The notes beneath the pieces are model-generated. The model did no database searches. It worked only from the letters and a program-made list of their open reading frames with translations, and was not told where the DNA came from. A stretch of 64,000 nt of DNA from Ktedonobacteraceae bacterium (GTDB taxonomy: Bacteria > Chloroflexota > Ktedonobacteria > Ktedonobacterales > Ktedonobacteraceae), in NCBI GenBank assembly GCA_035653615.1, contig DASRBN010000033.1, positions 1-64,000 of the forward strand. The letters are read 5' to 3'. This document shows, in pieces, positions 29,380 through 35,744 of the stretch (its first letter is position 1; every line of letters starts with the position of its first letter). The position numbers and the translations under genes are program-made.

Positions 29380-29498
29380 GTCATTCTGAGCGAAGCGAAG
29401 AATCGCCTGCCTCATCTCCCACCATGTCATTCTGAGCGAAGCGAAGAATCGCCTGCCTCATCTCCCACCATGTCATTCTGAGCGAAGCGAAGAATCTC
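29377..29498. repeat. three family A copies at 46-base period
   Basis: TCATTCTGAGCGAAGCGAAG begins at 29381, 29427 and 29473. The 46-base unit (core plus GCCTGCCTCATCTCCCACCATG) is repeated exactly once and then begins a third time. The cluster spans the nrnA 3-prime end and the truB start. Confidence 0.9.
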
Positions 29499-30518
29499 GC
29501 CACTCATCTCTCGCATTAATTCGTCAATCACCAGCTTCGTCGTTTCCTCAATGGGCATCGAAAACGTAGCCCCTGCCGCGCGCGGATGTCCACCGCCCCT
29601 GCCATTGCTCACACGTTTGCAGATCTCGGCAGCATTGTAGGGTGCGGCGCAGCGCAGGCTGAGCCGGGTAACCCCTGGCTCTCCGAAACTCTTGAAAAAG
29701 GCCGCGACCTCTACCCCCTCGATATCGCGCAGCAAGCCAGAGATGTTATCGTCCATCTCCGGTGTAGCGCCTGCCACTTCTAGCGTCTCGCGTGTGGCCT
29801 GCGACCAGATCAGTCTTCCATTGCAGGCCGTTTGCGCATTGGTAATCACCATGGCTTGCAGGCGCACCTGCGGCAGCGGACGAGTTTTGTAGATTGGCTG
29901 CACCACCGTTTCTGGTATCGCCCCTGCCCGTAGCAGCAGCGCCGCTACTTCCAGGCAGCGTGGAGTAGTGTTTGTGAATTGAAATGAACTGGTGTCAGTA
30001 ATGATGCCCGTGAGCAGGCACAGGGCCGCGTCGCGATTCAATGGCAAACCGGCCTGCTGCTGGAAAAGCACGACCAGTTCAGCAGTAGCTGCCGCCTTTG
30101 GATCGATAATATTCACCTGCCCGCAGCCATCGCTGCTGACGTGGTGATCGATATTGAGGATGGGCACTTCGCCCAGGTAGGCGCGATGCCGCTCATATAA
30201 TGAGCCGAAACGCACCAGCTCACCGGCATCCAGCGCAATCACCAGGTCAAACTCCTCCGCGCCAAGGTCTTGTTGCAGCAAATCGAGGCCCGGCAAAAAC
30301 GAGAGATTCTTCGGGGCAGGGTCCGCGCAAGCCGCAACAGCCATTTTGCCCGCTTGTCGCAAGATATGTGCCATGCCAAGCGCGGAGCCAATACAATCGC
30401 CATCAGGACTCTCATGCGCGATGCACACGATGCGCTCTGCCGGCTGAATGATCGCCATCGCCTCCTGAACGAGCGCGGGATCGAGTTGATTATGCAGTTC
30501 ACACGGGATATCACTCAT
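29427..30518 (-). CDS. nrnA: DHH-family nanoRNase/pAp phosphatase
   Basis: NrnA degrades very short RNAs and dephosphorylates pAp. The 363-residue protein has the DHH-domain metal motifs HESPDGDCIGSA and NIDHHVS, GIITDTSSFQFTNT, and a DHHA1 domain with GRGGGHPRAAGATF. The start MSDIPCELH has GGAAG upstream and overlaps rbfA by eight bases; a second ATG five codons upstream is possible. The last 25 residues (ILRFAQNDM ... DSSLRSE) come from family A repeats, which supply the stop codon. The order rbfA-nrnA-truB-ribF is common in bacteria. Confidence 0.94.
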   Translation of the reverse strand: MSDIPCELHNQLDPALVQEAMAIIQPAERIVCIAHESPDGDCIGSALGMAHILRQAGKMAVAACADPAPKNLSFLPGLDLLQQDLGAEEFDLVIALDAGELVRFGSLYERHRAYLGEVPILNIDHHVSSDGCGQVNIIDPKAAATAELVVLFQQQAGLPLNRDAALCLLTGIITDTSSFQFTNTTPRCLEVAALLLRAGAIPETVVQPIYKTRPLPQVRLQAMVITNAQTACNGRLIWSQATRETLEVAGATPEMDDNISGLLRDIEGVEVAAFFKSFGEPGVTRLSLRCAAPYNAAEICKRVSNGRGGGHPRAAGATFSMPIEETTKLVIDELMREMSGEILRFAQNDMVGDEAGDSSLRSE

Positions 30519-30891
30519 CGTTGCTTCCATCACTCACCGGATGATGCTCCATCTCGCTCTCACGGATAAGCTCAAGTATACGAGTCCCTTCCTGGATTGA
30601 GATATCAAGCTTGAACACCAGTTCCGGCATATAGCGCAGCGTGAGGCGGCTCGCAAGCTCGTGACGCAGGAAGCCGGTCGCGTGTTTCAACGCCCGGATC
30701 GTATCCTCCTGTTCATTCTCGGAGCCAAGCACGCTTACGAACACCTTGGCATGTCGTAAGTCGCCGCTCACCTCAACCCGCGTGATGCTCGCAAATCCCA
30801 CACGCGGGTCCTTCACACGCGTGCGCAGCAGGTCGCTCAGTTCCAGCGCGATGAGTTCACCCAGTTTTTCCTGTCGATGTGGATTTGGCAT
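30511..30891 (-). CDS. rbfA: ribosome-binding factor A
   Basis: RbfA binds the 30S subunit during 16S rRNA maturation, partly in the cold. The 126-residue product starts MPNPHRQEKLGELI and contains DPRVGFASITRVEVSGDLRH and the family length. The longer open frame runs back into the 48-base palindrome and is not conserved, so this ATG is used; GAAAG lies upstream. It overlaps nrnA. Confidence 0.95.
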   Translation of the reverse strand: MPNPHRQEKLGELIALELSDLLRTRVKDPRVGFASITRVEVSGDLRHAKVFVSVLGSENEQEDTIRALKHATGFLRHELASRLTLRYMPELVFKLDISIQEGTRILELIRESEMEHHPVSDGSNDE

Positions 30892-30979: not shown

Positions 30980-33451
30980 TTATGCTCCCGGCTTCACACG
31001 CTCTTTCGCATAGGTCTCGATAATATCGCCGATCTCGAATTCGTTGAAGTCTTCGAGGACGATACCGCACTCGTAACCGCCGGAAACCTCGCGCACATCG
31101 TCTTTACCACGACGTAGCGAAGCGATTTTGCCGTCGTACACCTTCTCATTCTTACGCGTGATGCGTGCCTGCGAGGAACGAGTAATCTTGCCATCCAGAA
31201 CGCGACAGCCCGCGATCACCAGATTCTTACCGGCTTTGAACATTTGCTGGACCTCGGCATGGCCTTCGATGACCTCCTGATAGGTCGGCTCGAGCATGCC
31301 TTTCAGCGCGGCCTGGATATCGTCTGTTAGCTTATAAATGATATTGTAATAGCGAATATCAACGCCTTCTTTCTGCGCCAGCCGTTGAGCCGCCCCATCA
31401 GCCTTGACGTTAAAGCCAATAATGATGGCTCCAGAAGCCGATGCCAGGTGTACATCGGTTTCGTTGATATTGCCAATTCCTTCGTGGATCAGGCGTACCT
31501 TGAGATTCTCGTCGCCGATTTTTGTCAGCGCGTTCTTGATGGCCTCCGCGGAACCCTGCACATCGCACTTTAGCACGATATTGAGTTCCTTCACCTGACC
31601 CTCCTGCATCTGCATATAGAGAGTATCGAGGCTGACCTGCCCAAGCGGACCCGTTTCGCTGCGGCGCTGCTCCGCAACCTGGGCCGCCATCTGTTTGGCC
31701 GTCCGCTCATCCACCACGACCTCGAGACGGTCTCCTGCCTGTGGCACTTCTGGTAAGCCCAGGATGCTAACCGGAGTGCTGGGCGGCGCCTTTTGAATGC
31801 GCTTACCCCGGTCGTTGAACATGGCACGCACTTTGCCGGCCATCGCTCCTACCACGATATTGTCGCCCATCTTCAGCGTCCCCTGCTGGATCAGCACGGT
31901 CGCGGTCGGGCCTGTATTCTTCTCGAGTTTTGCCTCAATGATTACTCCGGTTGCCGGACGATTCGGGTTAGCCCGGATATCCTGTATCTCGGCCAGCAGC
32001 AAGATCATTTCCAGCAGATCATCGATACCGGTCCCTTTACGCGCCGAGACCGGCACGCAGATCACATCACCCCCGTACTCTTCAATCACGATACCGATTT
32101 CGGCCAGCTGTTGTTTGACGCGATCAGGATTGGCATCGATTTTATCGATCTTGTTAAGCGCGATGATAATCGGCACTTTCGCGGCTTGCGCGTGGTCGAT
32201 GGCTTCGCGTGTCTGGGGCATCACGCCGTCGTCAGCTGCCACCACAATGACCGCGATATGCGTCACCTGCGCTCCACGCGCACGCATAGCAGTGAATGCT
32301 TCATGACCGGGTGTATCGAGGAAGGTAATTTTCTTGCCGTTGACCTCCACCTGGTACGCGCCGATATGTTGCGTAATGCCGCCTGCCTCACCTGCTGCTA
32401 CCTTTGTTTTGCGGATGGTATCAAGCAACGAGGTCTTGCCGTGGTCAACGTGCCCCATGATGGTCACAACCGGTGGAATCACCACCATATTGTCTTGATC
32501 GCGCGTCGCCATCATAGCCTCGTTTGCCGAAAGACCCTTGCGCGCCCGCTGTACCGCTGGCGATGCCGCAAGCGCGCTTTGTGTCGGCTCAAATCCCAGG
32601 TCTTGCGCAACCAGCGCGGCCTTATCATAATCAACCACCTGGTTAATGCTGGCGAAAATGCTATGTTTGATCAGGCCGCGAATGACCTCATTAGGCGTCG
32701 CGTGTAGCAGTTCGGCCAGGTCTTTAACGACAATCTGCGGTGGAATCGTGATTGGGCCTGTTGGCTTCTCTTTCACCGCGGCGGCGCGCCGTTCTTGTAG
32801 ACGCTGCCCGTTTGTGCCATTGCGACCGGCCGGGTGAGCAGTTCCTGGACGTGCCTGGCCGCCTGGCCGGTTGCTGCCTGGATGTGCCGTGGTCGTCGCA
32901 TGCTGTCCATGTTGAGCAGGACGTTGCTGTGTGATACTGCCAGAACGCGCCGGCGCTGTCGCGGATTGCATCGATGAACTACCGGGATGGACGGTTCGCT
33001 GCGCTTGAACGGCCCCACCCTGGCGCTGGACAGGAGCTTGTCGTGGGATTTGTGTTGATGTCGCACGAGCACCGGCTTGTAGGGGCGTACCCCTGTGGTC
33101 GCCCTCCACCCTTTTTTCTTTGAGGCCGCCCTCTGATCTTTTGAGGCTGGTCTCCGGTCTTTGCTCCTTGAGGTCGCCCGCTGCTTTAGGCGTTTCGGGC
33201 TGTATGGGCGCACTCTTGCGGTCGCCCGCTGCAGGCTTGTGGTCACCCGTTGCCTGTATACGGGCCGGTGGTGTCGTACTGGTAGAGGAGCCACGGCGCG
33301 CAGAGGACGGGCTAACCGGTGCTTTCTTGACTTCCTGTTCCTGGCTAACGGGCGAGGCCTGCTCGGATTTTGAGCGAGTACCTGTACGACTGCGTGCCGG
33401 GGTTGCTTTCGCCTGCTCGTTTGCATCTGGGGATTCAGATGTGTTTCTCAT
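30980..33451 (-). CDS. infB: translation initiation factor IF-2
   Basis: IF-2 brings initiator tRNA to the ribosome with GTP. The 823-residue protein has a disordered S/T/P/A/Q-rich N-terminus (1-230), the IF2N fold ([13 protein letters not shown]), G1 GHVDHGKTS at 333-341, G3 DTPGHEAF and G4 NKID, then the C-terminal domains. The disordered part includes several family B repeat copies read in frame (residues about 67-83, 92-97 and 116-127: [28 protein letters not shown]). AAGGGGG precedes the ATG. Its own promoter (33843-33871) and a terminator-like hairpin upstream suggest leader control. Confidence 0.96.
33079..33104 (+). repeat. family B repeat within infB
   Basis: GTAGGGGCGTACCC then CTGTGGTCGCCC, read in frame as [10 protein letters not shown] in IF-2. 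Confidence 0.75.
33202..33227 (+). repeat. second family B repeat within infB
   Basis: GTATGGGCGCACTC then TTGCGGTCGCCC, read as [11 protein letters not shown]. Partial copies lie at about 33165-33178 and 33235-33246. Confidence 0.7.
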
Positions 33452-33518
33452 GAAGATGACCCCCTTCTATATAAGGTTACGCCACCAGGGGTAGCGAGAA
33501 TCTCTCTTCACAGCCACA

Positions 33519-33556
33519 CAAAAAGACTGTCGCCTTCATAGAGAAGGTGACAGTCC
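33519..33556 (-). terminator. terminator-like hairpin in the infB leader
   Basis: On the minus strand GACTGTCACCTTC pairs with GAAGGCGACAGTC (one mismatch) and is followed by TTTTTG. It would end transcription before infB unless an alternative fold prevents it. Confidence 0.7.
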
Positions 33557-33842
33557 CTCGTTGGTGCAGTGCCAGGCATATATTCGTCTGCGCTCTCAGG
33601 CCTAAGGCCTGTGGCCTATGGTTTAACAGGTCATAGCTGTCGCTCCGCAAACTTTGCCAAAACTGCCCTCCAACCGGGGGGCTGTGCCTCTAACAAGAGT
33701 AGAGATATAATGACTCATAGATTTAGATGTGTTTCAAACTTCATCCGGCCAACCGACCAGATGATAAAGCCTTACTTCGATTCATCCCTCATCCATCTAT
33801 CAATGGATGCAAATGATAACCGGAAAAACTAATGTGCATTTC

Positions 33843-33871
33843 AGTATAGCGTACTACACGTCTAATTGCAA
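33843..33871 (-). promoter_or_regulatory. infB promoter, TTGCAA-17-TATACT
   Basis: Minus-strand TTGCAA (33866-33871) and TATACT (33843-33848) 17 bases apart, within the ylxR-infB gap. The minus 35 region TTGCAATTAG equals that of rpsA. Confidence 0.75.
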
Positions 33872-33892
33872 GAACAAATCAAAACCTACCCG

Positions 33893-34258
33893 TTATTCCG
33901 CTTTAGCACTCTTGTTTTTAGCGTTTGCAGGTACTTTTGCTTCCGGCTGCGCGGGCTCATCTTTAGGCAGCGTCGCGATGAACGCTTCCAGACCCGCGCG
34001 GTCTTCATCAGAGATCGTGACTTCAAATTCCTGCTCGATGCGCTTTTTCTTGATGGCATTTTCCCAGCAAGAAAGCCGGGCGCACAGGTAGGCCCCGCGC
34101 CCAGATTTCTTGCCGGTTGCATCCACAAACACATGCCCATCGGGCGTGCGCACGACACGCAGCAGCTCACGCTTCGGCTTCGTTACCCGGCAAGAGATGC
34201 AGCTGCGCAAGGGAACATGTTTTGGCCGCTTCACCTGCTTATTCGCTGTCTTCGCCAT
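33893..34258 (-). CDS. rnpM: YlxR-family RNA-binding protein (RnpM)
   Basis: YlxR/RnpM is a small RNA-binding protein of the nusA-infB operon; in Bacillus it binds RNase P RNA. The 121-residue protein has the core PLRSCISCRVTKPKRELLRVV, then DATGKKSGRGAYLC and a cysteine-helix (CWENAIKKKR). A charged tail (PEAKVPANAKNKSAKAE) follows. GGGAGGGAGG precedes the ATG. It lies 35 bases after nusA. Confidence 0.92.
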   Translation of the reverse strand: MAKTANKQVKRPKHVPLRSCISCRVTKPKRELLRVVRTPDGHVFVDATGKKSGRGAYLCARLSCWENAIKKKRIEQEFEVTISDEDRAGLEAFIATLPKDEPAQPEAKVPANAKNKSAKAE

Positions 34259-35660: not shown

Positions 35661-35686
35661 AAAAGTGGGCTAGGGCACCCACTTTT
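35661..35686 (-). terminator. terminator-like hairpin in the nusA leader
   Basis: AAAAGTGGG pairs with CCCACTTTT around CTAGGGCA. On the minus strand TTTTCTGTTTG follows. Since it lies between the nusA promoter and nusA, it could be an attenuator on which NusA acts (inference). Confidence 0.6.
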
Positions 35687-35715
35687 TCCAAAAGGTTTTC
35701 CTCGATTCTGTGCGT

Positions 35716-35744
35716 ATTATAGCATATTCTGAGTGGTAAAGCAA
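35716..35744 (-). promoter_or_regulatory. nusA promoter, TTGCTT-17-TATAAT
   Basis: Minus-strand TTGCTT (35739-35744) and perfect TATAAT (35716-35721) separated by 17 bases. It drives the long minus-strand array. Confidence 0.8.

Follow-up and report, generated by a model that had tools for sequence, protein, structure and literature searches.

A conserved three-codon open reading frame and terminator ahead of infB in Ktedonobacteria: a candidate ribosome-mediated attenuator

Why are ylxR and infB separated by 441 nt in a member of the Ktedonobacteria, a class of soil bacteria? In other bacteria, ylxQ often lies between the two genes. The DNA analysed here, called the window, is the whole stretch of 64,000 nt at positions 1 to 64,000 of contig DASRBN010000033.1 (Ktedonobacteraceae bacterium, assembly GCA_035653615.1). 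On its minus strand, ylxR (33893-34258, confirmed by Pfam) precedes infB (open reading frame, ORF, 30980-33451; Pfam IF-2, 1.7e-42), the gene of IF2, which is a main factor in translation initiation; Pfam also finds NusA, RbfA, DHH and TruB in the surroundings. ylxQ is absent from window positions 33451-33893, and in the family of the window (f1) the infB leader occupies its place. A first-pass annotation, made from the letters alone, had assigned to infB a promoter of its own and an apparent attenuator in a leader of 385 bases. We propose that the gap would be a dedicated infB leader, consisting of its own promoter, a structured RNA with a three-codon ORF (hereafter the mini-ORF) and an intrinsic terminator. 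The conserved order of promoter, mini-ORF and terminator is well supported by the alignments. What we infer is that ribosomes translate the mini-ORF, that the mini-ORF governs termination and that IF2 or the capacity for initiation is sensed, together with the sign of the control. All in all, the leader probably, though by no means securely, acts by ribosome-mediated attenuation, with initiation on the mini-ORF as the quantity read and IF2 as the target of the feedback.

Our comparison covers 42 leaders of the class, namely 26 from family f1, five from f2, one from the single f3 genome and ten from f4. Relatives were found by a DNA search, which recovered the region in 25 of the 28 same-family genomes (the window's own genome excluded); a search with the YlxR protein supplied one further locus, L061, and a profile search was used for the copy count per genome. 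The f1 leader occurs once per genome and only between ylxR and infB, the few weak extra matches being on the opposite strand of the same site or isolated, and the 26 aligned f1 leaders show long near-invariant blocks. The elements that carry the argument are as follows.

33843..33871, minus strand: infB promoter, TTGCAA-17-TATACT, predicted start at about 33836
33643..33646, minus strand: Shine-Dalgarno sequence of the mini-ORF, GGAG, 8 nt before its AUG
33623..33634, minus strand: mini-ORF, ATG ACC TGT TAA (Met-Thr-Cys-stop)
33520..33556, minus strand: terminator hairpin PT (GACUGUC..GACAGUC, from folding), followed by UUUUU
33449..33451, minus strand: infB start codon

The promoter hexamers lie where the first-pass annotation had placed them (TTGCAA at 33871-33866 and TATACT at 33848-33843, 17 nt apart). 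The site scores 9/12 and is the sole promoter-like site within 32500-34200, where shuffled sequences lead one to expect 0.6; the scan by itself is weak evidence. Conservation adds to it: all 26 f1 leaders have TTGCAA or TTGCCA, exactly 17 nt, and TATACT or TATAGT, and the promoter stays constant while the stretch that separates it from ylxR varies from about 2 to about 170 nt. From the predicted start to the infB ATG the leader measures 385 nt, so the length given earlier was right for that start.

Judged by the alignments, the mini-ORF is the most conserved element of the leader. A short ORF with a ribosome-binding site, in the form AUG-NNN-NNN-stop, is present in 40 of the 42 leaders (26/26 in f1, 4/5 in f2 and 10/10 in f4), and in the window its Shine-Dalgarno sequence is complementary to the 3′ end of the genome's own 16S rRNA (...GGATCACCTCCTTT), which contains the anti-Shine-Dalgarno CCTCC. 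Over 33 distinct leaders, the AUG carries 2.00/2.00/2.00 bits and the stop codon 2.00/1.67/2.00, whereas codons 2 and 3 carry 0.04-0.68 bits per base; the G at -12 of the Shine-Dalgarno sequence reaches 1.67. The stop changes from TAA to TGA in genus g2. Between close relatives, several codon differences are synonymous (AAT/AAC, CTA/TTA, AGA/CGA) and others are nonsynonymous, and the distance from AUG to stop is constant whereas the Shine-Dalgarno spacing varies. The leaders encode many different tripeptides with no run of regulatory codons. This lack of conservation in the peptide argues against an amino-acid-specific sensor; as codons 2 and 3 are left free, what the leader senses is probably the act of initiation. 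The first-pass annotation had suggested a translation-related signal without having seen the mini-ORF, and the conserved ORF with its Shine-Dalgarno sequence bears this out in kind.

The hairpin plus TTTTT that had been reported about 70 bases before the ATG is likewise present. In the window, it reads GACUGUC-A-CCUUC-UCUAU-GAAGG-C-GACAGUC followed by UUUUU (33555-33520), has a folding energy of -20.9 kcal/mol and ends about 70 nt before the infB ATG; the mismatch inside the stem is presumably the reason why a simple terminator scan did not list this hairpin. A hairpin stands 62-67 nt ahead of infB in all 26 f1 leaders, with energies of -18 to -36 kcal/mol when L012 is set aside (there the script caught the 3′ arm only, and the alignment shows the same stem). 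The tail is U-rich in 24 of them, UUUUUU or close to it in most. The f1 stem is GGGUCUGUC..GACAGACC, and a pair in its lower part changes from U-A to A-U in genera g1 and g4. Terminator-like hairpins of unrelated sequence occupy the matching place in four of the five f2 leaders, in f3 and in f4, the f3/f4 stem being GGGCUGG..CCAGCC(C); no terminator is visible in the leader L101. The distance from the mini-ORF AUG to the terminator is 49-78 nt in f1 (67-78 without L017), 77-78 nt in f2, 91-105 nt in nine f4 leaders and 191 nt in L110. A terminator thus lies between short ORF and gene, as in leader-ORF attenuators, weakly so in genus g3. This conservation across the class supports both the separate promoter and the attenuator that had been suspected, with regulation as a prediction. 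It also bears on the notion that the gap is an ordinary unregulated untranslated region or a product of chance: the promoter scan, which taken alone is near chance, would suit that notion, but we regard it as highly improbable, because promoter, mini-ORF and terminator are conserved across four families.

To which gene does the leader belong? In f4, ylxR mostly precedes other genes, yet infB retains mini-ORF and terminator, and the leader therefore belongs to infB. Among 19 infB loci from other Chloroflexota families we found no such mini-ORF, and the gaps were mostly small (ORF starts were guessed by script, so that gaps are approximate; a 20th locus was too short to judge). A stand-alone small RNA of about 310 nt, placed ahead of infB by chance with infB expressed through read-through, would account for a complete promoter-terminator unit. 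We think this very improbable, since the f4 leader stays with the relocated infB and since, in f1, the segment CACAGCC pairs with GGCUGUG past the terminator and the region is conserved up to the infB start. A metabolite riboswitch would fit a long and structured leader with a terminator. Rfam 15 gives no match to the leader at the gathering score and nothing credible up to E 10, nor any match to the leaders of nine relatives, which confirms the first-pass annotation's failure to recognise a riboswitch class. With a single copy per genome, found at infB only, and low sequence conservation between families, a riboswitch also seems very unlikely.

How would the attenuator work? The leader folds more stably than shuffled sequences (z = -3.7), so the local folding described earlier holds; that description understated the case, as there are candidate long-range helices too. 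The f1 core consists of the following parts.

33688..33699, minus strand: hairpin P0 (CUCU-loop-AGAG), a stem of 4 pairs with almost no variation, paired in 99% of cells
33680..33686, minus strand: CACAGCC, 5′ strand of helix P1a, near-invariant in the 26 f1 leaders
33663..33680, minus strand: 5′ strand of P2, candidate antiterminator (CCCCCG / GUUGG / GGGCAG)
33646..33652, minus strand: 5′ strand of P3, GUUUGCG, sharing one base with the mini-ORF Shine-Dalgarno sequence, 98% of cells paired with CGCAGAC
33586..33592, minus strand: 3′ strand of P3, CGCAGAC, from the f1 alignment
33555..33569, minus strand: 3′ strand of P2, CUGCACCAACGAGGG, running into the terminator base, from the f1 alignment; the f4 equivalent covaries
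33509..33515, minus strand: 3′ strand of P1a, GGCUGUG, transcribed only upon read-through, from the f1 alignment

P3 and P2 would enclose the mini-ORF. The first of these helices in f1, or P2 in f4, starts just 5′ of the mini-ORF Shine-Dalgarno sequence, where a clash would be expected with an initiation complex and not with an elongating ribosome. A ribosome initiating on the mini-ORF would open P3/P2 and free the terminator arm. Under efficient initiation, transcription would stop and little IF2 would be made; with IF2 or initiation capacity in short supply, P2 would persist and transcription would read through into infB. The sign that we favour would thus be negative feedback through disruption of P2.

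The f1 helices P0, P1a, P2 and P3, together with a sequestor described below, are paired in 96-99% of cells, compared with 38-48% when the partners are slid, the structure having been derived from the same alignment that was used for the scoring; covariation in these helices is slight. In f4, P2 is CCCAACGCGG:CCGCGUUGGG; in one genome, which has CCCGACAUGG:CCAUGUUGGG, both partners differ at two of the pairs (among five distinct sequences only). By the first-pass annotation's own criterion, a lack of stem conservation in relatives would have refuted it; the comparison did not do so, as P-1 (an early hairpin, see below), PT and the f4 P2 have substitutions in both strands that leave the pairing intact. 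At the terminator base, the 3′ strand of P2 adjoins the stem or runs into it (an overlap of GGG in f4), and as read from the sequence, ACAG of CACAGCC can lengthen the f1 P2 onto CUGU of the terminator 5′ arm; P2, with this ACAG:CUGU extension in f1, and the full terminator would therefore compete. For the stage at which the 3′ arm of the terminator is still missing, folding predictions give P2 a probability of at least 0.71 in 25 of the 26 f1 leaders and at least 0.72 in all eight scored f4 leaders. The finished terminator displaces P2 in most f1 leaders, and in f4 both largely coexist. In these models the competition is plausible, and its direction is unsupported by thermodynamics.

Several observations weigh against the attenuator as we propose it. 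P1a, P2 and P3 are nearly invariant in f1, so that covariation neither proves nor disproves them. The predicted P2 is weak in the window itself (probability 0.20, the lowest of f1), although inspection suggests that GUUGG:CCAAC may replace one broken pair there. In most leaders, the predicted P2 changes little when the footprint of a ribosome on the mini-ORF is masked; the effect is strong in L110 and L114 and smaller in L008 and L012. In genus g3 (L009 and L010), the tail is CUCUCU with hairpin and mini-ORF kept, and termination may be weak or lost. The f2 genome G036 has a two-codon ORF and no visible terminator, and the f3 genome G030 (leader L102) has an ORF of nine codons in place of three. 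Finally, conserved ends at a fixed distance of two codons might in principle be the mark of an RNA motif, not of an ORF. The nine-codon ORF of L102 encodes MASRCLRPE, follows the Shine-Dalgarno sequence GGGGAGG and lies about as far from its terminator as a mini-ORF does.

The same parts could also work in the opposite direction, with read-through favoured by a ribosome that initiates or terminates. For example, opening of P3 would release CGCAGAC, which could then pair with GUCUG in the 5′ arm of the terminator; with little IF2, subunits would join slowly and infB would rise. The complementarity CAGAC:GUCUG exists in most f1 leaders, and simple masking leaves the terminator no likelier in most leaders, which suits this version as well; however, g1 (the genus of the window), g4 and g13 have a broken pairing and an intact terminator, and we consider the opposite sign unlikely, if deserving of more weight than the other alternatives.

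Ribosome-mediated attenuation under negative feedback can be set beside known systems. Leader-peptide attenuators, for example the trp and his leaders and B. subtilis bmrC/D (PMC4191407), share with the infB leader a short ORF with a Shine-Dalgarno sequence before an intrinsic terminator; they also have a helix in competition with it, for which P2 is the candidate in the infB leader, and here too the position of the ribosome would decide. They differ in that the infB leader ORF has three codons, with no conserved amino acids and no regulatory codon run, and in that the target is an initiation factor, so that the signal would be initiation itself. Known attenuators with leader ORFs use regulatory codons or drug stalling.

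A second comparison is with the rimP-leader (PMC2965389), an attenuator at the head of rimP-nusA-infB operons that consists of a terminator motif and has no larger elements under conservation. Both are attenuators in an operon with nusA and infB, and the f3/f4 terminator stem has the form GGGC..GCC(C). The infB leader differs in that it stands directly before infB and combines a promoter of its own with a mini-ORF and a long structure that is conserved. Identity with the rimP-leader was rejected, as the infB leader is internal (ylxR-infB) or lies before a separate infB and the f1 stem differs from GGGc..gCCC. The rimP-leader is nevertheless a precedent in nusA-infB operons for the proposal of an attenuator controlled by protein without translation, in which NusA, IF2 or a ribosomal protein would bind the leader and set the terminator. 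The invariant core blocks could serve as a binding site, and the f3/f4 stem GGGCUGG..CCAGCC(C) resembles the GGGc..gCCC motif. Control by protein would leave unexplained AUG-NNN-NNN-stop with its Shine-Dalgarno sequence, as well as the roughly constant distance to the terminator, and the sequence blocks of f1, f2 and f4 differ while the ORF stays; we therefore rate it as distinctly improbable. We regard the infB leader as a form of leader-ORF attenuation distinct from the rimP-leader.

What exactly would the ribosome report? No autoregulatory switch for IF2 is known to us; in the literature on the control of this factor we found only whole-operon control linked to NusA and cold-stress promoters; no paper on an infB leader ORF was found in the open-access literature. 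The E. coli infB promoter P4, in the nusA-infB region, is cold-responsive (PMC6511841). Tentatively, and with appreciably less confidence than we place in ribosome-mediated attenuation as such, we suggest an initiation rheostat, in which a three-codon ORF indifferent to sequence would gauge IF2 activity and set infB transcription via the terminator, making IF2 autoregulatory. The variable gauged may be the rate of initiation or the drop-off of short peptidyl-tRNA stimulated by IF1 and IF2. Karimi et al. (1998) reportedly observed that IF1 and IF2 remove short peptidyl-tRNAs from the P site. ORFs of two or three codons are common to the infB leader and to minigenes, whose drop-off is known as a biochemical activity and for growth inhibition, not as a regulatory sensor for infB. 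We found no mechanism of this kind described for any initiation factor. The translation of infC (IF3) is controlled autogenously through its AUU start codon; there, too, an initiation-factor gene is read through a peculiarity of initiation, but infC uses its own start codon, whereas the infB leader uses a separate mini-ORF and a transcription terminator. At the infC loci of five genomes, we recognised no comparable mini-ORF leader. infC appears to be AUU-initiated after a good Shine-Dalgarno sequence in L143 (G000, the genome of the window), L141 (G022) and L142 (G021); in G021, a shorter open frame gives another IF3_N-like match, the second there.

These considerations suggest that Ktedonobacteria adjust IF2 to the measured success of translation start. 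A leader in which only start and stop are fixed would sense initiation and not an amino acid, and would be a simple type of sensor. Such sensors may be overlooked elsewhere, because three-codon ORFs are too short for the length limit that ordinary gene finders apply.

Four further candidates in the leader were discarded. A simple antiterminator CAGAC:GUCUG fails through the broken pairing in g1, g4 and g13, and the proposed pseudoknot CCUCG:CGAGG is a helix that nests. A longer ORF, MFAER.. from AUGUUUGCGGAG, loses its frame, as its spacing to the conserved AUG shifts by one base between species, and a tRNA-like or CCA end was dismissed because CUGCACCA is unconserved. 6S RNA was also set aside, since RF00013 matches nothing in the genome of the window, and the leader is no exception.

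Three other structures flank the core.

33790..33809, minus strand: hairpin P-2 (CAUCCAU-UGAU-AGAUGGAUG), read from the sequence
33742..33763, minus strand: hairpin P-1 (CAUCUGGUC-GGUU-GGCCGGAUG), pairing kept through base changes
33453..33508, minus strand: putative sequestor of the infB Shine-Dalgarno sequence, AAGAGAGAUUCUC with GGGGGUCAUCUU, around a small hairpin, f1 only, 97.8% of cells paired

P-2 and P-1 both lie, by inspection, downstream of the promoter. At the place of P-2, most f1 relatives have a hairpin of differing sequence (seen by inspection, uncounted). P-1 has ten distinct arms in 17 f1 leaders, with three of nine pairs changed on both sides and 85 of 90 cells paired, a pairing equalled by 2 of 2000 shuffles. 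With this sequestor, the infB Shine-Dalgarno sequence may be masked as well in f1 leaders; one pair of the sequestor is changed on both sides in the window. The sequestor pairs AAGAGAGAUUUCC with GGGAGUCUUCUU, and an alternative pairing of AGAGAU with AUCUCU, which stands at the 5′ end of the core, would make a possible second, translational switch.

Elsewhere in the cluster, a promoter-like TTGCTT-17-TATAAT followed by a hairpin, AAAAGUGGG-UGCCCUAG-CCCACUUUU, lies upstream of nusA (35661-35721, minus strand), and nusA may have a separate attenuator of its own. The core of this hairpin, GGGU..GCCC, resembles the rimP-leader motif GGGc..gCCC, and no rimP adjoins nusA. Between rbfA and truB, the same cluster carries a DHH/DHHA1 gene of the nanoRNase type (29427-30533, minus strand).
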